A stretch of DNA of 64,000 nt. It comes from Desulfolutivibrio sulfodismutans DSM 3696. Lineage in GTDB: Bacteria; Desulfobacterota; Desulfovibrionia; Desulfovibrionales; Desulfovibrionaceae. The notes below the pieces were generated by a model that searched no databases, was not told the DNA's origin, and worked only from the letters and a program-made list of their open reading frames with translations. The stretch's first letter is position 1; every line of letters begins with the position of its first letter. The position numbers and the translations under genes were made by a program. The stretch covers positions 3,865,001-3,929,000 of the forward strand of contig NZ_CP045504.1 in assembly GCF_013376455.1 (NCBI RefSeq). The letters are read 5' to 3'. This document shows positions 31,796 to 57,562 of the stretch, in pieces.

Positions 31796-33118
31796 TCAGG
31801 ACGCGCCTTTTTTTTCCATGCATTCGTAGATGATGTCGCCAAGGAACTTCAGTTCGATGCCGAGCCCGTATTTGTGGATGATGTCTTCCAGGCCGCCGTG
31901 GCAGTTGTGGCAGGGGGCGATGCAGGTCTTGACCCCGGTGGCCTTGAGCTGGTCGGCTTTGACGGAGTTGCCCACGATACGCACGTTTTTGAAGGGAGGC
32001 CCGCAGTTGATGACCCCGCCGCCCGCGCAGCAGCAGTAGTTGTGCTCCCGGTTGGGGGTCATCTCCACCACGCCGTCGCAGATGGCGTGCACCACCTCGC
32101 GCAGCTTGTCCATGAGCCCCCGGCCGCGAATGACGTTGCAGGGGTCGTGGATGGTCACCGGGCCAGGGTACTTTTTGGCCATGCGGATCTTTCCGGAATT
32201 CAAGAGATCCCAGAAAAACTCGATGGAATGCACCACGGGCACCGGGTGCATGCCCCAGCCCAGCCAGCGGTTGCCCACGTCGTAGATGGCCCGGAAGGCG
32301 TGTCCGCATTCGCCCATGACGATGCGTTTGACGCGCAGGCGCTGGGCGGCCTCGAAGTGGGCCATCTCCACCCGGCCCATGATCTCCATGTCGCCGGAGA
32401 ACATGGCCATGTTGCTGTTGTCCCAGCCCGGGGTGGCGGGCATGGTCCAGTTAAGCCCGGCCTGGTTGAAGATGAACGCAGCCTGATAGATGAGCTGGGT
32501 CCGGAACTTGGGTTCCGGGGCGATGACCGAATACATGAAGTCCGCGCCTTCCACCTCAAGCGGGATGCGCAACTCGGGCATTTCGTCCCGGGCCTCGTCT
32601 TCTTGCCATTTGAGGGTGTCGATCCACTCGTCGTCCTTGACCCACATCTGGTTCATGGTGGCGGAGTGGCTGTGGGCCGTATCCTGGATGTACTGCGGGG
32701 TGACCCCGAGCTTATGGCAGATGCGGCGCACGAACGACATGATGTAGGCGGTGTCGATGCCCAAGGGGCAGTAGTGCATGCAGCGCCGACACAGGTTACA
32801 TTCGGTGTAGGCGATCTGGGCGCACTGGTGAATGAATTCCGGGCTCACCAGCCCCTTGTGTTTGAGGATCTCCCACATGGTCTGGCGGACCTTGGCCACC
32901 GGGGCGTAGGAGGGATCCTTGTGGGACATGTAGTAGTGGCAGGCCTTGGCGCACATGCCGCAACGCACGCAGGTCTCCACGTAGGTTTTGAGTCTGGCCC
33001 CGCCTTCCCCTTCCAGGACGGCGAGAATGGTTTTTTGAATCTTCTCCGGGGTTAGCCGGGCAATCCCGGCTTCAAGCCCCGCATCTTCTATGCGCCTGTC
33101 GGCAATGGTGGTCGTCAT
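31796..33118 (-). CDS. tmcB: Tmc complex iron-sulfur subunit TmcB
   Basis: 440-residue HdrD-like protein on the cytoplasmic side of the Tmc complex. Two [4Fe-4S] motifs are visible (Cys50/53/56/60 and Cys107/110/113/117). The C-terminal half has two CCG-type regions: a first ending GECGHAF and a second with DPCNVIRG, YCCCAGGG and APCHNCHGG, the cysteine pattern that binds the noncubane cluster in heterodisulfide reductase. Start at 33118 behind GGAGG, 13 bases after the tmcC stop. Close relative of the selenoprotein at 44127-45428, where the GECGH Cys position is UGA. Confidence 0.94.
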   Translation of the reverse strand: MTTTIADRRIEDAGLEAGIARLTPEKIQKTILAVLEGEGGARLKTYVETCVRCGMCAKACHYYMSHKDPSYAPVAKVRQTMWEILKHKGLVSPEFIHQCAQIAYTECNLCRRCMHYCPLGIDTAYIMSFVRRICHKLGVTPQYIQDTAHSHSATMNQMWVKDDEWIDTLKWQEDEARDEMPELRIPLEVEGADFMYSVIAPEPKFRTQLIYQAAFIFNQAGLNWTMPATPGWDNSNMAMFSGDMEIMGRVEMAHFEAAQRLRVKRIVMGECGHAFRAIYDVGNRWLGWGMHPVPVVHSIEFFWDLLNSGKIRMAKKYPGPVTIHDPCNVIRGRGLMDKLREVVHAICDGVVEMTPNREHNYCCCAGGGVINCGPPFKNVRIVGNSVKADQLKATGVKTCIAPCHNCHGGLEDIIHKYGLGIELKFLGDIIYECMEKKGAS

Positions 33119-33131
33119 GTGTCCTCCGGTA

Positions 33132-33791
33132 TTACCAGTCCTTGGCCCGCCGCACGCCGCCGAACTCGGAGCCGATGTAGCCCCGTGCGAAGAATCCGAA
33201 CAGCATGTGGCTGAGTCTGGTGAAGGGGATGGCGATGAGCATGGCCTCGCCGCACAGGACGTGCAGGGTGGTGAGGGTCAGGCTGTCGCCGATCTGGTGA
33301 TAGGCCAAAAATCCGGTCGAAAAGGTGCAGAAGACCAGAACCAGGACCAGCCAGTCGTGGTTCGAGGTCACAAAACGCACCTCCGGCAGGCTCAGGCGCC
33401 GCCAGGCGAAAAACAGGCAGACGACCATGACCGCCACGGTCAGTCCGTCGGCCAGTCCGTCGGGCAGGGCGGCGTAGGTGAAGCCGAATGAGGTGTCCCA
33501 CATGACGATGTGGGACATGAGGAAGATGGGAACCAGGAACAGACAGATGTGGAACACATAGGTCGCGACCGTCAGGGCCGGGTTTTCCCGCCAGCCCAGG
33601 GAGCCGAAGGGGATGAGCCAGTGGAAAATGGAACGCAGGGAATAGCGCCAGGTCATGTAGCTCAAAAAGGCCGCGTCTTTTTTCTTGGCCAGGGAATACA
33701 TACTGAAAAGACGCGCCAGGGAGCCGATGACGAACACGCCGAAGGCCAACCAGGCCAGCGGTCCCACGGCCAGGGCGTAGAGTTCGAGCAT
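33132..33791 (-). CDS. tmcC: Tmc complex membrane cytochrome b subunit TmcC
   Basis: 219-residue inner-membrane protein with about five or six hydrophobic helices and conserved histidines (FHW, YVFHIC, LHVLC) suited to b-haem ligation; related to HmcE/NarI-type subunits that connect periplasmic cytochrome c3 with the cytoplasmic Fe-S subunit and the quinone pool. Start at 33791 is supported by GGAGG six bases upstream; an upstream ATG at 33836 has none. Between tmcD and tmcB on the same strand. Confidence 0.92.
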   Translation of the reverse strand: MLELYALAVGPLAWLAFGVFVIGSLARLFSMYSLAKKKDAAFLSYMTWRYSLRSIFHWLIPFGSLGWRENPALTVATYVFHICLFLVPIFLMSHIVMWDTSFGFTYAALPDGLADGLTVAVMVVCLFFAWRRLSLPEVRFVTSNHDWLVLVLVFCTFSTGFLAYHQIGDSLTLTTLHVLCGEAMLIAIPFTRLSHMLFGFFARGYIGSEFGGVRRAKDW

Positions 33792-33899
33792 GGGAACCTC
33801 CAAGGAACCTGTTGAAAGGGCCAGGGCCTCGATCAACGTTTTTGTGCTTGTCCGTTGCCGGATGCGCAGGGGGAATGCCCCGGCGCGCGCCCGGGGCCG

Positions 33900-35168
33900 C
33901 TATCCCGTGAAGGCCGAAACCGGGGCCACGATGCGCTTGTACGCCTTGCCGCTTATGCCCCGCAAAAGCACCTTTGCGCCGTCGGGGGAAAAGATCGGAT
34001 CATAGGCCCGGTCGAAGGTCGCGGGATGGGCCTTGCCGTCTAGGACAAAGGCCTTTTTGCCGTCCTTTTCCACCCGGATGGCCACCTGCCCGGTAGTCGG
34101 ACAGATCACCGGCCCATAGGCCATGTCGTAGACGCCGGGCCACACGGACCCATTCACCAGCACCCGGAAGGCGGTGTTGTCGGTGCTGGCCTGGGCGGCC
34201 ACGGTCTTGCCGTCGGGGGAGACGCGCAGGTCGGTGACCACCGGGAAGGTGGCGGACCAGGGCGCGGCGTTCACGGCCACGGTGAATTTGCCGAAGCTTG
34301 TGGCCACGATGGCGGCCAGGGTGGCGCCGTCGGCGGAGAATTGCGGATGGTGGCACTGGACGAAGGCCGGATTCCATACGAATCCCGCGTCCCCGGCCAT
34401 GCCCCAGAGGCCTTTTTTGCGCACCGGGGCCAGCACCTGGCCGTTTCCGGGATGGAAGACCGGGCCCCAGGCGCAGTCGTAGGCCGCTTCCCAGGCCTTG
34501 CCGTCCACGGCCACGGAATAGTCGTACAGGGAGCGGCGGATGGTGGCGGCCACGCGGCCGGTCTTGACTTCGATGGCCGGATCGAAACAGTTGACGAAGG
34601 TGGCGTCCCAGGGCTCGCCGTCCACGGCCACGCTGAAGATGCCCTTTTGGAAGGTTTCGATGTCCGCCTGCCCCATGGACTTGACCTGCACGGCGGCCGC
34701 AGTGTGCGCCCCGTCGGCTGCGATGCGGAAGTGGTTGGCGTTGTCGTGCAGGGTTTCCCAGGGCGCGCCGTCCACGACCATGCCGTAGCGGCCGTCGCTC
34801 TGGATGCAGGCCGCAATGACCCCGCCGTCCGCAGAAAAGGTGGTTCCCCAGGCGAAGTCGAAGCTTTCCTCCCAGGACTCCCCGTCCACGGACACGGTCC
34901 ACATCCCGTCCTCCATGGTCACGGCCGAAAGTCTGCCGTCGGGGGAAAACCTGAGATACCAGGCTTTTTCAAAATCCGTTTCCCAGGGCTCTGCGTTGAC
35001 GCACACGGTAAACCGGCCGTCCCCGAGATTGGCCACTGCGGCCAGGCGCTCCCCGTCCGGGGAGGACTCGGGCTCCTCCGTCCATTCGTGGGGGGCAGCG
35101 CAGGCCGTCGCGTCTTCGAGCACGGTCCGCGCTCCGGGCTCCCAGTCCCAGGCTTGATCGGCTTGCAT
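33900..35168 (-). CDS. tmcD: Tmc complex subunit TmcD (WD-like repeat protein)
   Basis: 422-residue Trp-rich protein composed of about eight repeats with the pattern W-x(3)-F...AW/C...FS-DG--A (for example WETDFEKAWYLRFSPDG), consistent with a beta-propeller. There is no signal peptide. TmcD co-purifies with the Tmc complex in Desulfovibrio and its role is unknown. The start has AAGGAGCC upstream. It is the first gene of this transcription unit. Confidence 0.9.
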   Translation of the reverse strand: MQADQAWDWEPGARTVLEDATACAAPHEWTEEPESSPDGERLAAVANLGDGRFTVCVNAEPWETDFEKAWYLRFSPDGRLSAVTMEDGMWTVSVDGESWEESFDFAWGTTFSADGGVIAACIQSDGRYGMVVDGAPWETLHDNANHFRIAADGAHTAAAVQVKSMGQADIETFQKGIFSVAVDGEPWDATFVNCFDPAIEVKTGRVAATIRRSLYDYSVAVDGKAWEAAYDCAWGPVFHPGNGQVLAPVRKKGLWGMAGDAGFVWNPAFVQCHHPQFSADGATLAAIVATSFGKFTVAVNAAPWSATFPVVTDLRVSPDGKTVAAQASTDNTAFRVLVNGSVWPGVYDMAYGPVICPTTGQVAIRVEKDGKKAFVLDGKAHPATFDRAYDPIFSPDGAKVLLRGISGKAYKRIVAPVSAFTG

Positions 35169-40210: not shown

Positions 40211-40552
40211 ATGCCAGGATTCAATGGAATGGGACCGCAGGGCAATGGACCGTTCACCGGCGGGGGGCGCGGCATGTGCGCCCAACCCGGCACGGGGATG
40301 GCAGTCGGACGCGGCATGGGCCAGGGACGCAGATGCGGCATGGGCCGTCGCGGCGCAGGGGGCCAGGGTATGGGCCAAGGTATGGGCCAGGGCCAGGGTA
40401 TGGGCCGGGGCATGGGGATGTCCCAGGGGGTGGCGCAAAGCGTCGGCCAGGGCCCGGCCGAGCCCGGGGCCGCCATGTCCCCCGAGGAATATGTGGCCTG
40501 GCTCGAGGCCGAGCTGGCCAAAACCCGCGCCAAGACGGGTCAGGGGAGCTAA
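40211..40552 (+). CDS. Small Gly/Met/Gln-rich ORP operon protein (DUF5320-like)
   Basis: 113 residues: MPGFNGMGPQGNGPFTGGG opening typical of DUF5320, a middle of repeated GQGMGxG units, and a short helical C-terminus. Matches the position of DVU2105 in the D. vulgaris orp2 operon. The ATG at 40211 is preferred over 40205 because AAGGAGG is seven bases away from it and only one from the other. Confidence 0.8.
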   Translation: MPGFNGMGPQGNGPFTGGGRGMCAQPGTGMAVGRGMGQGRRCGMGRRGAGGQGMGQGMGQGQGMGRGMGMSQGVAQSVGQGPAEPGAAMSPEEYVAWLEAELAKTRAKTGQGS

Positions 40553-41514
40553 TGGGCGCCACAGCCGATGAAACCCCGGTTTCCGGGAGCGCGTCTCCCG
40601 GGAACCGGCAACAGGACGGTCCGGTTATGAAAATCGCCATCGCCAGCGGCAAGGGCGGGACGGGAAAAACCACGGTGGCGGTCAACCTGGCTGTGCTTTT
40701 GGCCGATTCGGGCCGGGAGGTGGCCTTTGCCGATTGCGACGTGGAGGAACCCAACGCCCATGTTTTTTTGACCCCGGTCTGGGAGACCGAGGAACAGGCG
40801 TTCATGCCCATCCCCCGGTTTGTCCAGGAGCGGTGCCTGGGCGAGTCCTGCCGGGCGTGCCTGGATCTGTGCCGGTTCAAGGCGCTCATCCGCATGGCCG
40901 GGGAGATCATGCTTTTCCCGGAACTGTGCCACGGCTGCGGCCTGTGCAAGCTGGCCTGCCCGGCCGGGGCCGTGGCCGACGACGTGCGCGAGCTTGGCGT
41001 GGTGCGCAGCGGCGTCTCCGGAGGCATCCGCATGGCCGGGGGGCTTTCCCGGGTGGGCGAGGCCATGTCCACGCCCCTGATCAAGGCCGTGAAGCAAAAC
41101 GTGCACACTGCGCCATTGCAGATATGGGACTGTCCGCCGGGAACGGCCTGTCCGGTCATCGCGGCCGTGTCCGGGGCCGATTACGTGGTCCTTGTGGCCG
41201 AGCCCACGGCGTTTGGCCTGCATGACCTGAACCTGGCCGTGGAACTGGTGCGGGCCCTCGGGTTGCCCCACGGCGTGGTCATCAACCGCGACGGCATGGG
41301 CGACGACCGGGTGCTGTCCTACCTTGAGCGGGAAGGCATCGAGCTTTTGGGGCGCATCCCCGGCAGCCTGGAGGCCGCCCGGGCCTCGGCCCGGGGCGGG
41401 CTTTTGGCGCGGACGTTCCCCGAGATACGGGCCGTATTGGAAACCGTCCTGGCCACGGTCCAGGACCGGATCCGGGCCAGCGCCGGACAAAAGGAAGCGT
41501 CATGCGTGAGATAG
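40552..41514 (+). CDS. ParA/MinD-type ATPase with ferredoxin insert (ORP complex)
   Basis: 320 residues. Deviant Walker A GKGGTGKT (33-40), a ferredoxin-type insert with two [4Fe-4S] cysteine sets (ESCRACLDLC, ELCHGCGLCKLACP), and the DCPPGTACP switch region. Homologous to DVU2104. The ATG overlaps the preceding stop (TAATG) with GGGGAG upstream. It probably acts with its neighbour in loading metal clusters or in the division-related function proposed for the ORP complex. Confidence 0.9.
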   Translation: MGATADETPVSGSASPGNRQQDGPVMKIAIASGKGGTGKTTVAVNLAVLLADSGREVAFADCDVEEPNAHVFLTPVWETEEQAFMPIPRFVQERCLGESCRACLDLCRFKALIRMAGEIMLFPELCHGCGLCKLACPAGAVADDVRELGVVRSGVSGGIRMAGGLSRVGEAMSTPLIKAVKQNVHTAPLQIWDCPPGTACPVIAAVSGADYVVLVAEPTAFGLHDLNLAVELVRALGLPHGVVINRDGMGDDRVLSYLEREGIELLGRIPGSLEAARASARGGLLARTFPEIRAVLETVLATVQDRIRASAGQKEASCVR

Positions 41515-42377
41515 TGGTGTTAAGCGGCAAGGGCGGCACGGGAAAAACCAGCGTCACGGCGGCCCTGGCCGTGTGCGCGGCGAAAAGCGATCTCCCGGGC
41601 GGCCCGCCGGTCCTGGCCGATTGCGACGTGGACGCCGCCGACCTGCATCTGGTTCTGGCCCCCGCCATCCGGGAGCGCCACGAATTTATGGGCGGGGACA
41701 AGGCCGTTATCGACGCCGAAGTGTGCCAGTCCTGCGGCCTGTGTCGCGAGGCCTGCCGTTTCGGGGCCATCGACGAGGCTTTCCGGGTGAACGAGGCCTC
41801 TTGCGAGGGCTGCGGGGTCTGCGCCTACGTCTGTCCTGCCGGGGCCGCGACCCTTGGCCCGCGCGTGTCCGGGGACTGGTTTGTGTCCGAGACCCGGGCC
41901 GGGATCATGGTCCATGCGGCGCTGCGCATGGGCGAGGAGAATTCCGGCAAGCTCGTGTCCACGGTGAAAAAGGCGGCCCGGGCCGAGGCGCAGCGGCTCG
42001 GCCGGGACATCCTGCTGGTGGACGGTTCCCCGGGCATCGGCTGTCCGGTCATCGCCTCCCTGGGCGGGGCCTCCACGGTGCTCATGGTGGCCGAGCCCAC
42101 GCTTTCGGCGGTCCATGACATAAAAAGGGTCCACGCCCTGGCCCGGCATTTCGGCATCCCCTGCGCCGCCATCCTCAACAAGGCCGACGTCTGCCCGGAA
42201 CTGACCCGGGAGCTGGCGGGCTTTTGCGGGGAATCGGGGATCACCGTCCTGGGCGAGCTCCCCTTTGATCCAGCCTTTGTCGCGGCCCAGCTGGCCGGGC
42301 AAAGCGTTGCGGAAAACGCCCCGGAAAGGTACGAAAGGCTTTTTTCGGATATCTGGCGACGGCTTGCGGCATCGTAA
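41502..42377 (+). CDS. ParA/MinD-type ATPase with ferredoxin insert (ORP complex)
   Basis: 291 residues, paralogous to the preceding gene, with which it overlaps by 13 bases. Walker A GKGGTGKT (9-16), DCDVDAADLHL, [4Fe-4S] sets EVCQSCGLCREAC and ASCEGCGVCAYVCP, switch GSPGIGCP. Homologous to DVU2103. The two ATPases probably form a heterodimer. Confidence 0.9.
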   Translation: MREIVVLSGKGGTGKTSVTAALAVCAAKSDLPGGPPVLADCDVDAADLHLVLAPAIRERHEFMGGDKAVIDAEVCQSCGLCREACRFGAIDEAFRVNEASCEGCGVCAYVCPAGAATLGPRVSGDWFVSETRAGIMVHAALRMGEENSGKLVSTVKKAARAEAQRLGRDILLVDGSPGIGCPVIASLGGASTVLMVAEPTLSAVHDIKRVHALARHFGIPCAAILNKADVCPELTRELAGFCGESGITVLGELPFDPAFVAAQLAGQSVAENAPERYERLFSDIWRRLAAS

Positions 42378-42490
42378 GCGTTCCCCCCCCTTGAAATAGA
42401 AGGCCTCCAGGGGGGTTCGAAATCCCGATGCCGGGATCTCGGGGACGCGGCAGTCGCGATGCGCCGGGCCGTGCCGACGGGGAGCCCTTC

Positions 42491-43828
42491 ATGCCGCAGG
42501 ACGGCGACGACGCGATGTCACGGGAAAATCTGGCCCGGGTGCTTGACGACATGGGCCTGGGCGTCTTCACCGTGGACGAGGACTGGAACATCCGCTTTTT
42601 CAACCGGGAGGCCGAGCGCATCACCGGCTATTCCCGGGACGAGGTGTTGGGGAAAAAGTGCCACGAGGTCTTTTATACCCAAAATTGCCATGAGCGGTGC
42701 CAACTGCGGCAGGCCATCCAGACCGGCCGCAAGAGCGGCAAGACCCGGCTGGACATCAGGGACAAATCCGGCCGCCGTCTGGCCGTGGAGGTCTCGGCCG
42801 CGCCCCTGACCGACGCTGCGGGCGCGGTGGTGGGCGGGGTGGAGACCTTTCTGGACGTGTCCGGGACGAACGCCGTGCGCCCGGCGGCCGGACGGTCCCA
42901 CGGCCTGGACGAGTTCGTGGGCGCAGACGACGCCATCCTGCGCCTGTTCGAAACCCTGACCCTGGCCGCCGGAACCACCGCCCCCATCCTGCTCCTGGGC
43001 GAGACGGGCACGGGCAAGGATCTGCTGGCCCGGGCCGCCCACAGCCTGAGCCATCGCCGGGACGGCCCCTTCGTCAAGATCAACTGCGCCGCGCTGCCCG
43101 AAAACCTGCTGGAATCGGAGCTTTTCGGCTACAAAAAAGGGGCCTTCACCGACGCCCGAGCCGACAAGCCGGGCATCTTGCAGACCGCCGAGGGCGGCAC
43201 GGTCTTTTTCGACGAGATCGGCGAACTGCCCCTGTCGCTTCAGGCCAAGCTGCTCCAGGTCATGGAGGAAAAACGTTTCCACCCTCTGGGGGCCACCTCC
43301 CCGCGCACCGTGGACGTTCGCCTGGTGGCGGCCACCAACCGCAGCCTCAAGACCCTGGCCGCGGAGGGCAAATTCCGCGACGATCTGTATTTTCGCCTGC
43401 GGGTGTTGGAGCTGGAGATTCCCCCCTTGCGCAAACGGCGCAGCGACATTCCCCTTTTGATCGAACATTTCCTCAAACACATCGGCGAGATGTACCACAA
43501 GCGGATCGCCGGGGCGGACCCGGCGGTGATCAAGATCCTGTACCGCCATGACTTTCCAGGCAACGTGCGCGAACTGTTGCATGTGGTGGAGCACGCCGTC
43601 ATCCTGGCCAAGGACGACATGCTGCATACCGGCGACCTGCCGCCCTATCTGGCCCAGTCCGCCCCCCGCAAGGCCGTAGCGGACGATCCCGGCCCCCTGG
43701 CCCGCAGCGAGCGGGACTGCCTTGTGGAGGAATTGGCGGCGCATGGTTGGAACATGGCCCAGACCGCCAAAACCCTTGGCGTCAACCGCTCCACCCTGTG
43801 GCGCAAGATGAAAAAATACGGCCTCTAG
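42491..43828 (+). CDS. Second PAS-AAA-HTH sigma-54-dependent activator
   Basis: 445 residues, same architecture as the OrpR-like protein: PAS domain with Cys57, Cys66 and Cys70, AAA+ domain with GETGTGKD, GAFTDA and FFDEIGELP, and a Fis-type helix-turn-helix. The ATG at 42491 has GGAG seven bases upstream; 42428 and 42515 are in-frame alternatives. It follows the rightward ORP operon, but lies directly upstream of the selenoprotein gene, which has a sigma-54 promoter and a 16-base palindrome; control of that gene is the more economical reading. Confidence 0.88.
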   Translation: MPQDGDDAMSRENLARVLDDMGLGVFTVDEDWNIRFFNREAERITGYSRDEVLGKKCHEVFYTQNCHERCQLRQAIQTGRKSGKTRLDIRDKSGRRLAVEVSAAPLTDAAGAVVGGVETFLDVSGTNAVRPAAGRSHGLDEFVGADDAILRLFETLTLAAGTTAPILLLGETGTGKDLLARAAHSLSHRRDGPFVKINCAALPENLLESELFGYKKGAFTDARADKPGILQTAEGGTVFFDEIGELPLSLQAKLLQVMEEKRFHPLGATSPRTVDVRLVAATNRSLKTLAAEGKFRDDLYFRLRVLELEIPPLRKRRSDIPLLIEHFLKHIGEMYHKRIAGADPAVIKILYRHDFPGNVRELLHVVEHAVILAKDDMLHTGDLPPYLAQSAPRKAVADDPGPLARSERDCLVEELAAHGWNMAQTAKTLGVNRSTLWRKMKKYGL

Positions 43829-44036: not shown

Positions 44037-44052
44037 CGGCACGGCTTTTGCC
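44037..44052 (+). promoter_or_regulatory. Sigma-54 promoter of the selenoprotein gene
   Basis: CGGCACGGCTTTTGCC matches GGCACG-N4-TTGC exactly; only the first base differs from the consensus. Predicted start near 44063, about 64 bases before the ATG. Confidence 0.8.
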
Positions 44053-44126
44053 TAAATCATGCCGTTCCACACGATAGCCGCTGGCGGAGGACCGGGCATC
44101 GGCGCCGCAGCCAAAAGGAGAAGACT

Positions 44127-45428
44127 ATGGGTGATTCGGTGTATACCTTTGAAGGAAAAAAACGGCCCTCGTTCATGGCCAAGGTCAAGGAGCTTTTGCC
44201 CGAAGGGGGCAACCTTGACATGTGCCTGACCTGCGGCCTGTGCGCCTCGGGGTGTCCGGCCTCGGGACAGGCCGGGGGCATGGACCCCCGCAAGTTCCTG
44301 CGCATGGCCGCCCTGGGCATGGACGACGAGGTCACCTCTACGGAATGGGTGTGGCACTGCACCATGTGTCAGCGCTGCATCTACGCCTGCCCCATGAAGA
44401 TCGACATCCCGCAGCTGGTCTTCAACGCCAGGCAGGCCTGGCCCCGGGACAAGCGTCCCAAGGGCATCCTGGGCTCCTGCGACCAGGCGCTTCGCACCGA
44501 AGGCAACAGCGCCATGGGCGCGTCCTCCGAGGACTTCGCCTTCGTGGTCGGCGACGTGCTGGAGGAGGTTCGCGAGAACCAGCCCGGGCAGGAAGACCTG
44601 GAGGCCCCCGTCAACAAGGTCGGCGCGGAATACTTCCTGAACCAGAACTCCCGCGAGCCCGTGACCGAGCCCGACGAGATGGTTCCCTTGTGGAAGATCC
44701 TCAAGACCGTGGGCGCGGACTGGACCTACGGCACGCGCGGCTGGGCGGCCGAAAACTACTGCATGTTCCTGGCCGACGACGCGGCCTGGGAAAACATCGT
44801 GCGCAACAAGGTCAAGGCTGTGGAGGACCTTGGGTGCAAATACTGGCTGAACACGGAGTGAGGCCACGAACTCTTCGCAGTCCGGGCCGGACTGAAAAAG
44901 TTTGGGATCACGCCGAAGTTCGAGATCGAAAGCATCATCCGCCTTTATGCCCGCTGGATTCGTGAGGGCAAGCTCAACGTCTCCTCCGACTGGAACAAGG
45001 ACCGCAAGGTCACCTTCACCGTACAGGATCCCTGTCAGCTCGTGCGCAAGAGCTATGGCGACCCTGTGGCCGACGACCTGCGTTTTGTGGTTAAGTCCGT
45101 GGTCGGTGAGGAAAATTTCATCGACATGTGGCCCAGAAAGTCCAACAACTACTGCTGCGGCGGCGGCGGCGGATTCCTGCAATCCGGCATGCCCGAAGCC
45201 CGTCGGGCCTACGGCAAGCTCAAAAACGACCAGATCATCGAGACCAAGGCGCACTATTGCATCACCCCGTGCCACAATTGCCACTCCCAGATCCACGATC
45301 TCTCGGGATACTACGAGGGCGGCTACCACGCCGTGCATCTGTGGACGCTGATCTGCCTGTCCATGGGCATGCTCGGAGAGAACGAGCGCGAATACCTGGG
45401 CGACGACCTGAAGGACGTCGGCCTGTAG
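44127..45428 (+). CDS. Selenocysteine-containing HdrD/GlpC-like iron-sulfur oxidoreductase (UGA read as Sec245)
   Basis: 433 residues if the in-frame TGA at 44859-44861 is read as selenocysteine; a frame-perfect continuation of 188 codons follows it. Two [4Fe-4S] sites (Cys33/36/39/43 and Cys78/81/84/88), then a first CCG-like region ending LNTE-U-GHEL, then a second with DPCQLVRKS, YCCGGGGG and TPCHNCHSQ. In the related TmcB the UGA position is Cys (GECGH). A hairpin CAGTCC-GGGCC-GGACTG starts 16 bases after the UGA, with the loop G about 22 bases from it, as expected for a bacterial SECIS. AAAAGGAG precedes the ATG. Likely a cytoplasmic electron-transfer enzyme acting on a disulfide or other substrate; partner unknown. 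Confidence 0.87.
44859..44894 (+). promoter_or_regulatory. UGA codon and SECIS-like hairpin
   Basis: UGA at 44859-44861 followed by CAGTCC (44878-44883), loop GGGCC and GGACTG (44889-44894). The stem is perfect, the loop starts with GG, and the distance from UGA fits the window known for bacterial SECIS elements read by SelB. Confidence 0.75.
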
Positions 45429-45495: not shown

Positions 45496-45533
45496 GGGCG
45501 GCGGGACGCATCATGCGCCCGCCGCCCTTTTTT
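45496..45533 (+). terminator. Terminator of the selenoprotein gene
   Basis: GGGCGGCGGG, a 12-base loop and CCCGCCGCCC followed by TTTTTT, about 70 bases after the stop codon. Confidence 0.92.
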
Positions 45534-48325: not shown

Positions 48326-49036
48326 AGTGTGCTCCTTGGTGTGAAATAGAGATATGATGCTGTGTTTTTTTAAATATACAAATAGGTGTCGGTTGTTATC
48401 GTTTAAAATCTAGTATCTTTACTCTGGTTTTGGACGGAAAGCGTTCATGTCGCAGTTGTGTTTGTTTTCGCTGTCATACCTGTCTCGAGCCGCTCCCTGT
48501 TTTTCAAGGTTTCGCCGAAGTCTACGGATACTCGGCAGCTCAAGAAAGCAAGCACGTTCTTCAAGAACCCAATGGCTGGGAAATCTGCCCCGTCTATATC
48601 TTTCCCGGAGTATACTTGCAAGGATGTTGCCTGTGTCTCCGGGAAATAGAATCTGAGGCGTAAAAATATACAGATTCGGTATTTTCCGAGAGGGCTCGTT
48701 TTTACGGGCACAAGCGTGATACCGGAAAAGCTGTACCCAGAGCAAACGGATTTTAATATTTGGTAAATGCCACGAAATATCGTCGCCAGCCTGCGTAATG
48801 GCTTGGAAATCGTAGAGAGTTGTCGGGGAGACAGTGCAACAACCAGCCACCGGCGTCGGCACATGGCGCCGCCCCGGCCAGCAAAAGAATCTGCCATGAA
48901 ATATGAAGCGTATTTCCGCATGTCGGGAGCAAAGAGAGGACGCCGGATGACCACCGGACTTGACATCCCGGCCGCAACCTCCGAGGACAGACCGTACCTG
49001 CACAACATGAGCACGTCACGGGTACATGGAGAGAGC
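48326..49036. other. Low-GC intergenic region, no gene recognised
   Basis: 711 bases. Two long overlapping frames on the minus strand and several on the plus strand exist but lack ribosome sites, start motifs or recognisable products. It may hold decayed sequence linked to the low-GC gene next to it. Confidence 0.4.
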
Positions 49037-50197
49037 ATGAAGCACTGTTTCGCCGCCGTCATTCCCGCCGCCGGGCTGTCTTCCCGGCTTCCGGCCTTCA
49101 AGCCCCTTTTGCCCCTGGGAGACGCCTCCACCCTGGGACGGGTGGTGCGGGCCTGCCGTCAGGCAAAGATTCGCGAGATCATCGTGGTCACCGGGCACCG
49201 GGCTGCCGAGGTCGGGGCCGAGGCCGTGCGGCTGGGAGCCCGCGCCGTGCACAACCCCGATTTTTTACGCGGCATGTTTTCCTCGGTGTGCGCCGGGCTG
49301 GCCGCCGTGTCCGGCGACGCGCAGGGCGTGTTCGTCCATCCCGTGGACATTCCCCTGGTCCGCTCTCATGTGCATATGCGGCTTACGGACCGCTTCGCCA
49401 GCTCCCCCGCGCCGGTCCTTTTCCCCACATACGGCGGGCGCAGGGGGCATCCGCCGCTTCTGCGGGCCGCGATGATCCCCGAGGTGCTGGCCTGGGACGG
49501 GGACGGCGGGCTTTGCGGGGCGCTTACCGCCCTGGACGGCGAGGATGTGGAGGTGGCCTGCGCCCAGATCCATTTCGACATGGACGACGACGCGGCCTAT
49601 TTCAAGGCCCTGGGACTTTTGGCCCGCCTGGATGTGCCAGGCCCCGACGAGGCCCGGATCATGCTCACCTCCTATTTCGGCGTGCCGCCGCGCGGCCGCG
49701 CCCATGCCGAGGCCGTGGCCCGGGCGGCGGTGGCCCTGGCCCGGGCCCTGAACCGCCTGGGGGCCGGACTCGACGTGCGGCTGGTGGAGTCGGCGGCCCT
49801 TTTGCACGACCTGGCCAAGGGCCGACCGCAGCACGAGGCCGAGGGAGGCCGGGAGCTTCTGCGGCTGGGGTTCCCGATCCTGGCGGACATCGTGGCCTGC
49901 CACCGGGATACCAACCTTGGCGAGACCGACCCCTTGACTGAAAAAGAGATCGTCTATCTGGCGGACAAGCTGGTGCGTTGCGACCGCTTTGTAGGCCTGG
50001 AGGCCAGGTTCCGGGAGAAGCTGGACATGTTCGAGGGCGACGCCGCCGCCCAGACGGCCATACGCGGCCGCCGCCAGCGGGCCCGGGGCGTGTTGGCCCG
50101 GGTGGAGCGCGAGGCGGGCATGGATGCGGCGGCCATCCTGTCCCTGGCCGGGATGGTCGTGGGGGCGGGCGAGGCGGGCGGGGCGTGCGCCGGGTAA
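49037..50197 (+). CDS. DVU1551-type NTP transferase with HD domain
   Basis: 386 residues. N-terminal MobA-like nucleotidyltransferase (AAVIPAAGLSSRLPAFKPLLPLGD, then VHPVDIPLVR), C-terminal HD phosphohydrolase (ESAALLHDLAKGRP and ACHRDTNLG). This fusion is named after DVU1551, encoded beside a molybdenum aldehyde oxidoreductase in D. vulgaris, where it may produce a modified molybdopterin cytosine or guanine dinucleotide. Start at 49037 has GGAG upstream; the upstream in-frame extension is non-homologous. The next gene overlaps by 13 bases. Confidence 0.86.
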   Translation: MKHCFAAVIPAAGLSSRLPAFKPLLPLGDASTLGRVVRACRQAKIREIIVVTGHRAAEVGAEAVRLGARAVHNPDFLRGMFSSVCAGLAAVSGDAQGVFVHPVDIPLVRSHVHMRLTDRFASSPAPVLFPTYGGRRGHPPLLRAAMIPEVLAWDGDGGLCGALTALDGEDVEVACAQIHFDMDDDAAYFKALGLLARLDVPGPDEARIMLTSYFGVPPRGRAHAEAVARAAVALARALNRLGAGLDVRLVESAALLHDLAKGRPQHEAEGGRELLRLGFPILADIVACHRDTNLGETDPLTEKEIVYLADKLVRCDRFVGLEARFREKLDMFEGDAAAQTAIRGRRQRARGVLARVEREAGMDAAAILSLAGMVVGAGEAGGACAG

Positions 50198-53960: not shown

Positions 53961-54168
53961 TGGATGTCATCGATTGCGCGACAGGTATGACGCATCTGTT
54001 CGTGTCTGAGGCGGTATCAAATTCATGATGCGGCAATTAAAAAATATTGCGGGAAGCCGATGCCTTCTGTAGAATATGCACACGGCCATTCGGCCGCTCG
54101 TACTCCGAGGCCCAGGCGGACCCTGCCGCACATGCCGCCGGGATCATCTCCCCCTGTTGGAGGCCCTC

Positions 54169-56811
54169 ATGCGTAAAGGGAATGCCTTTTCCTGTCTGTC
54201 AGTCCTTGTCGTGTGTCTTCTCCTGCCTGTCGCCTCCCCGGCCGCCGAATCCTTCCAGTTCAGCCGTTTCGCGCCGCAGGATACGGGGCAGTTCGCCTAT
54301 ACGGATCTGAATATGCCAAGCGGGGTCGCGGGCGACGCCGCAGGCAACATCTATGTGGCGGACACCGGCAACGACCGGGTCCGAAAGTACTCAGCGGCAG
54401 GCGTCCTGCTCGCCGAATGGGGGACAAGCGGGACCGGGGACGGACAGTTTTCCGGGCCGGCCGGCATCGCCGTGGACGGGGCCGGGAACGTCTATGTGGC
54501 GGACACCGGCAATAACCGCATCCAGAAATTCTCGTCAAACGGGGTTCTTACGGCCAAATGGGGCGGCCTGGGGAATGGAGACGGCCAGTTCGCGTCCCCG
54601 CGCGGCGTGGCCGTGGACGGGTCCGGAAACGTCTATGTGGCGGACACCGGCAATAACCGCATCCAGAAATTCGCCCCGAACGGAACCTTTGCGGCCGCAT
54701 GGGGCTTGCCCGGATCGGGGGACGGGGAGTTTTCGGATCCGCGCGGCGTGGCCGTGGACGCCTCGGGAAACATCTATGTCGCGGATTCGGGGAACAACCG
54801 CATCCAGGAGCTCTCGCCGGAGGGCTTCTGCATCACGATTTGGGGGGAGGCGGGTTCCGGAATCGGGCAGTTCAATGTGGTCCATGGGGTGGCCGTCGAC
54901 ACGCAGGGTCACGTTTATGCGGCGGATTACAACAACAGCCGCGTTCAGGTATTCACCTCCGAAGGCGACGTTTTGGGGAATTGGGGCGGCTATGGCGTAG
55001 GCGACGGCCAGCTCGAATATCCGACCGGAGTCGCCGTGGCCGCCTCGGGCGACATTCTCGTCGCCGACACGCTCAACAACCGGATCGTGAAATATTCCGC
55101 GGCGGGAAATTTCCTGATGAAGCTCGGCTCCGTCGGAAACGCCAGCGGCCAGTTGAACATGCCGCAGCACCTGGCCATGGACGCCTCCGGGAACGTCTTC
55201 GTCGCCGAATGGGGCAACAACCGCATCCAGAAGTACAATGCCGATGGCGAGACCTCGCTTTTGTTCGGCTTTTCCGGATCGGGCAACGGACAGTTCTCCA
55301 GACCGTGCGGGGTGGCCGTCGACGCCGCGGGCAACATCTACGTCGCGGACACCTACAACCATCGCATCCAGAAATTCGACTCGACCGGCGGCTTTGCGGC
55401 CAAATGGGGGTCGAACGGCACGGGCGACAGCCAGTTCTCTTTTCCCGAGGATCTGGCCGTGGACAGCGGCGGGAACGTCTATGTGGCCGATAAAAGCAAC
55501 AACCGCATCCAGAAATTTGCTTCCGACGGAACCTTTGCGGCCAAGTGGGGGACAAGCGGCGCCGGGAACGGGCAGTTCAACAGGCCCTCCGGCGTGGCCG
55601 TCGGCCCGGGCGGCGTCGTCTACGTCGCGGACACCTACAACCATCGCATCCAGAAATTCACGGCGGACGGCGTTTTCGCCGCAAAATGGGGGACAAGCGG
55701 CACGGGCGACGGGCAGTTTGCGTACCCGACCGGGGTGGCCGTGGACGCCTCCGGCAACGTCTTCGTGACGGACAACAGCAACTCCCGGGTGCAGAAGTTC
55801 ACCTCCGCCGGGGTCTTTGCAGCCAAATGGGGCAGCGCAGGGACCGGCGACGGGAAATTCAACGCGCCTGTCGGCGTGGCCGTGGACGCCGGGGGAAACC
55901 TCTTTGTGTCCGACGGCGGCAACCGCATCCAGAAGGGGACGCCCGTCGCCATGGCGGCGCAGCTCGAATCTCCGCCGCCTGCCGCCACGACCCAGACCGG
56001 CTATTCCCTGACAGTCGGCGGGACTGGTGTTGTGCAATACCGCTACCGCCTCGACGGCGGGGCCTGGAACGCCGCCGTCCCCGTGGCCACGCCCCTCGCG
56101 CTGACCCTGGCCGAGGGGAGCCACACCCTGGAGCTTGTGGGCGGGGATACATGGGGCAACTGGCAGGCAACGGATTCGCCCACCACCTACACCTGGACCA
56201 TCGACGTCACGGCCCCCACGGCGGAACTGACCGGGGTTCCCGTGGGCAGCGTCAACACCACCGCCGCCGTCGTCACCGTGGGCGGCCAGGGCGCGGTGTG
56301 GTATCGCTATCGCCTGGGGGCCGGATTCTGGACTCCGTCGTGGTCCGTGGAGCGGCAGATCATTCTGAGCGATATGGCCGAGGGCGCGCACACCCTCTCC
56401 GTGGTCGCGGCCGACGCCCTGGGCAACTGGCAATCGACGGATGCGCCGACCAGCGCCACGTGGACCGTGGACCTGACCGCCCCGGGCGATCCGGTCATCC
56501 CGCCGGGCGACAATCCCGGCACCCAGACCACCGCCCGGCCGACCCTGCGCTGGACGGCCGCGACCGGGGCCACGCAATACCTGATCGAGGTCAGCGACTC
56601 CGCCGACTTCTCGTCGCCGCTCGTCAGCCGCGTGGTGTCCGGAACCTCCTATACCCTGGCCGACATCGAGGCCCTGGTGCGCACCGGCGTCTGGTATTGG
56701 CGGGTGCGCGCCCTGGACGCGGCCGGGAACCAGGGGAGCTGGGTCACGGGTTCGTTCGAATACAAGGCTGCGGCAGCCGGAGGGATGATCCTGCTGTTGC
56801 TTCAGGAATAG
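54169..56811 (+). CDS. Secreted NHL-repeat protein 1
   Basis: 880 residues. Signal peptide (MRKGNAFSCLSVLVVCLLLP, cleavage about residue 29). Residues about 48-590 hold 12 NHL repeats of 47 residues (G-x-GQF-x(2)-P-x-GVAVD-x-GNVYVADT-x-NNRIQKF), suited to two six-bladed beta-propellers. Then two Ig-like repeats (about 598-770) ending in GNWQ, a fibronectin III-like domain, and the tail AAGGMILLLLQE. The start at 54169 has GGAGG upstream; the frame is open further but lacks support. Extracellular or surface protein, binding function inferred only. First of three tandem paralogues. Confidence 0.85.
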   Translation: MRKGNAFSCLSVLVVCLLLPVASPAAESFQFSRFAPQDTGQFAYTDLNMPSGVAGDAAGNIYVADTGNDRVRKYSAAGVLLAEWGTSGTGDGQFSGPAGIAVDGAGNVYVADTGNNRIQKFSSNGVLTAKWGGLGNGDGQFASPRGVAVDGSGNVYVADTGNNRIQKFAPNGTFAAAWGLPGSGDGEFSDPRGVAVDASGNIYVADSGNNRIQELSPEGFCITIWGEAGSGIGQFNVVHGVAVDTQGHVYAADYNNSRVQVFTSEGDVLGNWGGYGVGDGQLEYPTGVAVAASGDILVADTLNNRIVKYSAAGNFLMKLGSVGNASGQLNMPQHLAMDASGNVFVAEWGNNRIQKYNADGETSLLFGFSGSGNGQFSRPCGVAVDAAGNIYVADTYNHRIQKFDSTGGFAAKWGSNGTGDSQFSFPEDLAVDSGGNVYVADKSNNRIQKFASDGTFAAKWGTSGAGNGQFNRPSGVAVGPGGVVYVADTYNHRIQKFTADGVFAAKWGTSGTGDGQFAYPTGVAVDASGNVFVTDNSNSRVQKFTSAGVFAAKWGSAGTGDGKFNAPVGVAVDAGGNLFVSDGGNRIQKGTPVAMAAQLESPPPAATTQTGYSLTVGGTGVVQYRYRLDGGAWNAAVPVATPLALTLAEGSHTLELVGGDTWGNWQATDSPTTYTWTIDVTAPTAELTGVPVGSVNTTAAVVTVGGQGAVWYRYRLGAGFWTPSWSVERQIILSDMAEGAHTLSVVAADALGNWQSTDAPTSATWTVDLTAPGDPVIPPGDNPGTQTTARPTLRWTAATGATQYLIEVSDSADFSSPLVSRVVSGTSYTLADIEALVRTGVWYWRVRALDAAGNQGSWVTGSFEYKAAAAGGMILLLLQE
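56461..56811 (+). repeat. 351-bp exact repeat (copy 1) at the 3' end of NHL gene 1
   Basis: Identical base for base to 59837-60187 as far as I could compare by eye, including the stop codon, whereas the sequence immediately before and the repeats upstream differ. Indicates recent duplication or gene conversion. Confidence 0.85.
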
Positions 56812-56813
56812 CG

Positions 56814-56966
56814 CATGCGGCGGCGGGAAACGATCGTCATCCCGCACAAGGCGGTGAAGCTGCGCAAAAAAAGCCGCCGCCTGCTGCGGCGCATCGCGAC
56901 CGCCGCGTCTATAACCGAAAGGCTAAGCATAAAAACAAGGCCCTGGAGCAGTCCGGGGCCTTTTTC
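56814..56966 (+). pseudogene. Small basic protein element, copy 2 (frameshifted)
   Basis: Copy of the element at 53577-53726, two bases after the stop of NHL gene 1. One base is missing in the poly-A stretch after the LRKK codons (AAGAAAAAG in copy 1, AAAAAAAG here), so the reading frame breaks. The same terminator follows at 56937-56966. Could also be phase-variable. Confidence 0.65.
56937..56966 (+). terminator. Terminator of NHL gene 1
   Basis: AAGGCCCTGG-N6-CCGGGGCCTTTTTC hairpin with T tract, 126 bases after the stop codon. Confidence 0.85.
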
Positions 56967-57562
56967 GTTGAGGAGGATCTGAAGTCAAGGCCGAAGATGC
57001 GTGGCGCGTCAAACTGGACGGGTCTGATGCAGACCTGAATAGTGTCTATATGTGCATGTGCAAGAGATAATAGACTGCCTAATATATCAGAGAAATATGA
57101 TAGAGTGGTTTGGGGTACAAATGGCATGGCGTGTTTTGAGGGAATCCGTCTGTGTCTGGATTGGCGGATATACGACGCTATTTCATGATATATGGACCCT
57201 GCTTTGACATGGAATGTGGTAATACATCATTCATGGTGCGACAGTGTCGTGTCGGTGGATGGCAGAATGGTTTTCAGTAGTGTGCGCCGCTCGCTTTCGG
57301 TCTGCGACCATCGAGATTGTTTTGTGGATACGTATGAAATAGAAAAATACTTTGATATTTTTCGTATTTATATGCATGCTTGCGACGAACGCAAAGAAAG
57401 TGCTTGTCGTGCGTCCGTGTATTCGGTAATGATTAAGAAAATTATACTTTCTGCCGATATCATTGCAGATTTTTCACAGCACCCCTCCGTCCGCGCCAGG
57501 AGGTTTTGTGACCGGGGCGTCGATACCGACGCCCCGGTCTACATTTCCCAAGGAGCCACGCC
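56967..57562. other. Low-GC intergenic region between NHL genes 1 and 2
   Basis: About 600 bases, AT-rich for most of its length. It includes a perfect hairpin ACCGGGGCGTCG-ATAC-CGACGCCCCGGT at 57511-57538, just upstream of the ribosome site of gene 2. A 128-codon frame from 57192 overlaps the start of gene 2 and has no recognisable product. Confidence 0.5.
57511..57538 (+). promoter_or_regulatory. 5'-leader stem-loop of NHL gene 2
   Basis: 12-bp perfect GC-rich stem with ATAC loop ending 24 bases before the ATG at 57563 and directly before AAGGAGCC. No T tract follows, so it is not a terminator; it may stabilise the mRNA or control initiation. Confidence 0.45.

Follow-up and report, generated by a model that had tools for sequence, protein, structure and literature searches.

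The gene at positions 44127-45428 (plus strand) of the Desulfolutivibrio sulfodismutans DSM 3696 DNA analysed here, a stretch of 64,000 nucleotides hereafter called the window, almost certainly encodes one intact selenoprotein, with the UGA at codon 245 read as selenocysteine (Sec). Judged from its frame and homologues, the 433-residue product would be an iron-sulfur subunit of the HdrCB (HdrD-like) type, and it is probable that the full-length selenoprotein acts as an exchangeable electron-transfer subunit whose selenol lies beside its single noncubane cluster. The selenoprotein reading, already proposed in the initial annotation, is borne out by a codon that is either UGA or Cys across the family, a covarying hairpin, synonymous constraint, the presence of selA, selB, selD and tRNA-Sec in the genome, and the Cys codon of a relative, G010.

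UGA and cysteine at codon 245

The frame that opens at 44127 contains a single in-frame TGA, codon 245 (44859-44861, plus strand), and comprises 433 codons in all before a TAG. On re-reading, its start, the position of the TGA and the 188 codons beyond it were all as first described. A Shine-Dalgarno-like AAGGAG (44115-44120, plus strand) lies 6 nt 5' of the ATG.

The family search covered 59 genomes, the window's own included, from which 40 stretches were fetched. The alignment comprises 43 full-length members, among them the window gene with two paralogues from its own genome; partial matches in G050 and G057 were left out. Residue 245 is encoded by UGA in 35 of these members and by a Cys codon (TGC or TGT) in eight, and no other residue occurs, which excludes chance. 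The initial annotation had held that UGA replaces a conserved Cys and had suggested an alignment as the check; the 35:8 division supports this, and TmcB (31796-33118, minus strand) does read GECGH at the aligned position.

A second set, from named contigs, consists of the best 80 of at least 566 loci ranked by similarity, and so leans to the Sec clade. Its 81 copies each have TGA at the expected place and 80 of them align at residue 245; L135 (228 aa) has an earlier stop and hence no residue there. At least two contigs of this set seem to recur from the first set, as two pairs of loci (L099/L064 and L155/L063) are on contigs of equal length that appear to be the same, so the 124 rows of the combined set are not all independent. 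Named carriers include Desulfonema magnum, Desulfopila aestuarii, Salidesulfovibrio brasiliensis, Halodesulfovibrio spirochaetisodalis and Desulfospira joergensenii.

The window genome has one Sec copy and two Cys paralogues (66% and 62% identity). In order of position, the paralogue loci are G000:C1:1663824 and G000:C1:3985528. Sec and Cys paralogues adjoin in L061 and L072, and L137 has two Sec copies. Three distant relatives (G035:C8:381772, G052:C439:1326 and G025:C10:40620; 32-35% identity) have one TGA inside the match, which perhaps marks further selenoprotein branches or terminal stops.

Were the window sequence considered alone, its TGA could be a nonsense mutation, a sequencing error or a true stop, leaving a broken gene or two proteins, and taken singly the hairpin described below has an energy only modestly lower than that of shuffled sequences (z -1.28). 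The probability of this is negligible given that 35 of the 43 members and 80 named-contig copies share a UGA at this codon, followed by an intact remainder of the protein, and that the hairpin covaries. The first in-frame ATG, GTG or TTG at which translation could restart is the GTG at 45042 (codon 306), which loses C303. Nonsense mutation, split gene and restart were rejected on the conservation of the UGA and this loss.

SECIS-like hairpin and synonymous constraint

A hairpin, CAGUCC-GGGCC-GGACUG, begins at 44878, 16 nt past the UGA, and the perfect 6-bp stem with a GGGCC loop noted there earlier is confirmed. The element (44878-44894, plus strand; 6-7 bp, GG in the apical loop) is called SECIS-like against the bacterial SECIS consensus, with a G in the apical loop, and both the location just 3' of the UGA and the apical-loop G are found. 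RNA folding was a check proposed in the initial annotation. Over 42 nt of this sequence alone RNAfold chooses a GGC triloop closed by a stem of 7 bp (-13.1 kcal/mol), but a z-score of -1.28 is weak for one sequence, and covariation was used instead. In many other members the stem gains an outer pair (44877/44895).

Covariation was assessed in 34 distinct sequences, which represent the 35 UGA genes since the window and L050 are identical there. Across the 7-bp helix 97.5% of cells are paired, and both sides have changed in six cells. Not one shuffle in 500 is as high as the real alignment in paired cells, double-change cells, pair types or covariation score, but 54 of 500 reach the observed number of pairs with both sides changed. 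One pair of the helix is seen as G-C, A-U, U-A and G-U, with one C-A mismatch. At least six of the seven pairs are kept in register in 114 of 115 aligned UGA genes, compared with two of eight Cys genes; a free search finds stems of 5-8 bp 3' of the Cys codon in all eight Cys copies, so this contrast rests on the fixed register.

The hairpin also coincides in part with the region where synonymous constraint on the gene is strongest, as codons 247-255 are its top 9-codon window for synonymous identity (0.76 vs a mean of 0.50). GGA is used for Gly at codon 255 in 31 of the 35 UGA genes, in which it makes up 220 of 1279 Gly codons overall. A scan of the window with Rfam, which may hold no general bacterial SECIS model, gave no match. 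In the mechanism that these comparisons strongly support, SelB-bound Sec-tRNA would decode UGA 245 as Sec, aided by the hairpin 16 nt downstream.

Selenocysteine machinery

Matches to selA (602 bits), selB (372 bits) and selD (339 bits) are found in the window genome, as is a tRNA-Sec with anticodon tca. All four genes whose search had been proposed at the outset (selA, selB, selC, i.e. tRNA-Sec, and selD) are thus there, including selB and tRNA-Sec, whose absence had been named as grounds for abandoning the selenoprotein. The genome's own selD match (G000:C1:238403-239329, L092) contains one in-frame TGA, so SelD is itself likely to be a selenoprotein.

Within the 59-genome set, selB is found in 28 of 30 genomes with a full-length UGA copy, the window's own included. 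The two exceptions are G016 (430 contigs), which has selA and tRNA-Sec even so, and G024 (67% complete, 520 contigs), which has no selB, selA or tRNA-Sec match above the cut-off. With G091 and G331 they make four UGA carriers without a selB match, all drafts of 290-740 contigs. G010 (95% complete, 3 contigs) offers the best natural experiment: it is the one well-assembled carrier with no selA or selB match, its best tRNA-Sec match is a tRNA-Ser, and its family member has Cys (TGC) at codon 245. At the level of the phylum, selB occurs in 35 of the 37 carriers among 297 genomes (family match at E <= 1e-120, counted from matches alone), which is uninformative because 263 of the 297 carry selB.

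Insertion of another residue at the UGA, or leaky readthrough, is very improbable. Cys is the sole replacement, on three branches, the genome has the full Sec machinery, and most Cys copies form a weaker hairpin in that register, all of which argue for Sec.

Evolution of residue 245

The tree comprises 83 rows, i.e. TmcB and 82 of 123 family rows after thinning at 85% identity, with all eight Cys rows retained. Residue 245 requires three changes on it, and the Cys rows, of which six form one clade and the others are L059 and L087, are nested within Sec groups. The simplest reading suggests three Sec-to-Cys replacements, although we infer the direction, because the tree is rooted on a single long outgroup branch and the fork that leads to L059 has weak support. 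Table 1 of an earlier survey, which has five members, gives two Cys-to-Sec events and no Sec-to-Cys event (PMC1794560), whereas the larger set used here suggests three changes from Sec to Cys.

Domains and fold of the protein

Pfam identifies 4Fe-4S dicluster and CCG (PF02754) domains in the window protein. The HdrC-like part has two [4Fe-4S] motifs by Pfam and alignment, C33 C36 C39 C43 (44223-44255, plus strand) and C78 C81 C84 C88 (44358-44390, plus strand). Alignment, fold and profiles place the N-terminal CCG domain, CCG1, at 44616-45002 (plus strand); it is degenerate, and has an extra Cys, C212, that is invariant in the 43 members. The C-terminal domain, CCG2 (45003-45371, plus strand), is complete, with C303, C343-C344 and C382xxC385. 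As the initial annotation had it, the second CCG domain (residues 303-385) lies wholly downstream of the UGA. The UGH motif stands within a protein of Fer4 and CCG domains, as in the Fe-S oxidoreductase-like selenoprotein (PTHR43551).

The first description of the protein as HdrD/GlpC-like agrees with the fold, but the curated NCBIfam cut-offs are missed for GlpC (TIGR03379, 35.8 vs 279.9 bits; NF008369, 44.2 vs 278 bits), HmcF (NF045711, 150.2 vs 750 bits), TmcB (NF045724, 134.3 vs 735 bits) and DsrK (NF045796, 109.9 vs 400 bits), so that none of these names should be used.

An AlphaFold model of the protein without cofactors, made with 48 sequences from the window and the named-contig set, has a pLDDT of 84.5 and a pTM of 0.84. 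Its top VIA-align match is EtfD of Mycobacterium smegmatis (9ojn; Z 25.1, 373 residues, rmsd 3.1), followed by HdrB chains (Z 20.4-21.3), LutA (20.2) and 3kwl (19.6). Dicluster rows of HdrC and CODH were also among the structure matches. Kinship with the matches ranked lower than all of these (racemases, periplasmic binding proteins) was rejected, the likeness being taken as a common arrangement. The HdrB-like fold, together with matches to HdrC by sequence, points to an HdrC-HdrB fusion, i.e. an HdrD-like protein. An HdrC-like dicluster part and an HdrB-like double CCG part are found in one chain, as in the HdrD type, but unlike HdrB the protein has a full Cys set in CCG2 and not in CCG1.

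Predicted position of Sec245 beside the iron-sulfur clusters

The UGH motif (residues 245-247; 44859-44867, plus strand) contains an invariant His, His247, which by alignment corresponds to EtfD His583. With a profile over residues 65-433 that includes TmcB, U245 falls on EtfD Cys581 and HdrB Cys78, H247 on EtfD His583, and E248 on EtfD Cys584 and HdrB Cys81; in the EtfD alignment all three are in the highest posterior class. A shallower profile placed U245 on HdrB C81 instead of C78. In the model U245 lies just ahead of a helix, like C382 in CCG2, and this register agrees with the later alignment (U245 on HdrB C78). Profiles of CCG1 against CCG2, and of the family against HdrB, were too shallow, the latter aligning CCG2 alone. 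U245 as the second Cys of a CC pair was dropped, since model and profile give the first Cys of CxxC.

EtfD is homologous to HdrBC, and according to the available text on its structure the ligands of its noncubane cluster, D2, are Cys637, 672, 673, 709 and 712 together with His583, which is said to render it non-catalytic, and those of the linear [3Fe-4S] cluster, D1, are Cys503, 538, 581 and 584 (PMC13083937). The D2 set is complete in the window protein (C303, C343, C344, C382, C385 and H247). From the D1 set the position of Cys581 alone is kept, as Sec, the other three being G166, Y201 and E248, with a low posterior for the Y201/Cys538 column. One noncubane cluster would be expected from a complete D2 set and a D1 set reduced to Sec. 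Sec245 is expected to lie two residues from the predicted His ligand of this noncubane [4Fe-4S] cluster, and the original suggestion that it takes part in cluster or thiol chemistry, now better placed, is plausible.

Gene neighbourhoods and candidate partners

We compared 124 neighbourhoods, many of which end at contig edges and a few of which are duplicated. Neighbours were named from one representative per cluster, matched by Pfam or best family and mostly under NCBIfam curated cut-offs. Within the stretches fetched, 52 neighbourhoods contain an HdrA-like gene, 35 an MvhD-like gene, 24 a MetV-like and 24 a MetF-like gene, and 15 an HdrC-like and 15 an HdrB-like gene; VhuG- and VhuA-like hydrogenase genes are found in ten each, GlpB-like genes in ten and GlpA-like genes in nine. 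Three gene orders recur: hdrA-mvhD-[Sec gene]-metV-metF, hdrA-[Sec gene]-frhB-vhuG-vhuA and hdrA-hdrC-hdrB-usp-[Sec gene], in the last of which "usp" is a cluster with no NCBIfam match, named from a reading of its sequence. glpAB adjoins the Sec gene in some relatives. One Cys paralogue of the window genome (L048) is near hdrA and mvhD, and no hdrA-type partner was found in positions 30001-60000 of the window. MetFV-HdrABC-MvhD is a known complex in Moorella, according to the available text of PMC5861303.

Proposed role of Sec245

Taken together, the protein would be an HdrC-HdrB fusion with two N-terminal cubane motifs and a complete CCG2 holding one noncubane [4Fe-4S] cluster, in which CCG1 has presumably lost its cluster ligands save one, Sec245. 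The Sec is predicted to sit in the UGH turn, whose His247 has a counterpart in EtfD that caps the noncubane cluster. The noncubane cluster may relay electrons between the cubane chain and a partner that is either of the HdrA/MvhD type or a flavin dehydrogenase, and the selenol or selenolate near this cluster could be a reversible ligand, a redox switch or a nucleophile on a disulfide-type partner.

Sec245 might instead be a substrate-facing nucleophile that reduces a disulfide, trisulfide or persulfide together with the noncubane cluster. The window protein is homologous to HdrB and HdrC, and HdrB acts on heterodisulfide; an exchange limited to Sec and Cys also suits redox catalysis, and Cys stands in the same ECGH motif in DsrK and TmcB of this genome. 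DsrK is proposed to act on the DsrC trisulfide. We nevertheless consider such catalysis rather unlikely. His247 aligns with the cluster-completing His583 of EtfD, termed non-catalytic, and E248 occupies the place of Cys81, the displaceable bridging residue of HdrB (available text of PMC13083937); the His cap counts against direct substrate chemistry if His247 acts alike. The metVF-, glpAB- and hydrogenase-like neighbours have no obvious common disulfide substrate. For these reasons, the neighbours and the match of His247 to an EtfD ligand, an adaptor role is preferred over a dedicated disulfide reductase.

Sec245 could also serve purely as a cluster ligand, its selenolate binding an iron, either in the noncubane cluster or in a small cluster of CCG1, and tuning the potential, with no substrate chemistry. 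This too is rather unlikely: the aligned Cys581 of EtfD is a ligand of the linear [3Fe-4S] cluster (available text of PMC13083937) and the invariant C212 is an extra Cys in the same domain, but the other three EtfD D1 ligands are gone (G166, Y201 and E248, with the low posterior at Y201/Cys538 noted above).

Beyond the preferred reading, an exchangeable subunit with a selenol beside one noncubane cluster, we put forward only tentatively that the HdrD/DsrK superfamily includes a selenium-dependent branch, in which a single Sec, facing the remaining noncubane [4Fe-4S] cluster, replaces one of the two HdrB noncubane clusters to give a Se-Fe/S module shared among different redox enzymes. If so, those sharing it would be methylene-tetrahydrofolate reductase, F420-non-reducing-type hydrogenase, HdrACB and glycerol-3-phosphate dehydrogenase. 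Such a branch would also have a biological Fe-S/Se site of a type for which no description was found in the open-licence literature searched.

Relation to known proteins

The initial annotation's statement that Fe-S oxidoreductase (GlpC-type) selenoproteins occur in Deltaproteobacteria is in print (PMC1794560, PMC13188914). "Fe-S oxidoreductase (GlpC)" selenoproteins were described with five members, one of them from Desulfovibrio vulgaris, and with a glpC-hdrA-frhD-frhG-frhA operon of Syntrophobacter (PMC1794560), and a readthrough cluster "Fe-S oxidoreductase" includes DP1009 (PMC1914089). An "Fe-S oxidoreductase-like protein" with the motif UGH is credited to Kryukov and Gladyshev 2004 in PMC13188914, which cites RefSeq WP_174406253.1 and PANTHER PTHR43551 for the family, and a table entry in PMC9312934 gives the same credit. 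In UGA, UGH motif and occurrence in Deltaproteobacteria the window gene is like this family, and nothing sets it apart. HdrD4 of Desulfobacterium autotrophicum, also from a sulfate reducer, is by its description alike in its HdrC- plus HdrB-type composition, its Sec and its lack of transmembrane parts (available text of PMC2702500).

EtfD (9ojn) shares two cubane clusters, CCG1 and CCG2, and a His two residues past the CCG1 Cys, but EtfD is a heme-containing membrane protein whose CCG1 carries a linear [3Fe-4S] cluster, and three of the four ligands of that cluster are missing from the window protein (available text of PMC13083937). HdrB and HdrC of HdrABC (5odc, 8rvu, 7bkb) share their domains and a complete set of CCG2 ligands with the window protein; there are two noncubane clusters in HdrB, whereas CCG1 of the window protein lacks the ligands needed for one. 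At the Sec site, TmcB and DsrK of this genome have ECGH, i.e. Cys rather than Sec, and TmcB, which is 25% identical to the window protein, has the complete CCG2 Cys set.

Sequences of the family have been known since 2004, and what is new here is where the Sec is placed in the structure, together with the survey of gene neighbourhoods; we found no earlier account of either in the available parts of the open-licence literature. The available text of a 2026 review says that nearly all the selenoproteins it lists, this family among them, "remain largely uncharacterized" (PMC13188914). Placing the Sec two residues from an aligned noncubane ligand of EtfD, and listing the neighbours, takes the family from "function unknown" to specific tests, and bears on the conserved ECGH Cys of two sulfate respiration proteins, DsrK and TmcB. 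Annotation of the gene needs to continue through the UGA.

Genomic context and regulation

In the genus of the window genome, the Sec gene lies 3' of a sigma-54 activator gene and appears to be monocistronic. In the window the latter is a PAS/sigma-54 activator gene (42428-43828, plus strand), identified from domain matches and neighbourhoods, and is a possible regulator of the Sec gene. A sigma-54 (-24/-12)-like site, CGGCACGGCTTTTGC, at 44037-44051 (plus strand), 90 nt 5' of the start codon, is a weak lead: such a site is also at -90 in L050 and L051, from two other genomes of the genus, and 2.33 one-mismatch matches are expected per window by chance. Downstream of the gene is a strong intrinsic-terminator-like hairpin with a U run (45496-45533, plus strand; z -3.35, 60 nt folded), absent from the list of a simple terminator scan.

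Several other genes of the window were identified. A pair of MinD/ParA-type ATPase genes with ferredoxin domains is at 40276-42377 (plus strand), and in the neighbourhood clustering its cluster contains the three loci of the genus and no others. A DVU_1551-family NTP transferase gene with an HD domain is at 48767-50197 (plus strand), and two large genes at 54076-60187 (plus strand) match ScyF (NHL) models. The Tmc electron-transfer complex genes tmcB and tmcD are at 31796-35168 (minus strand).
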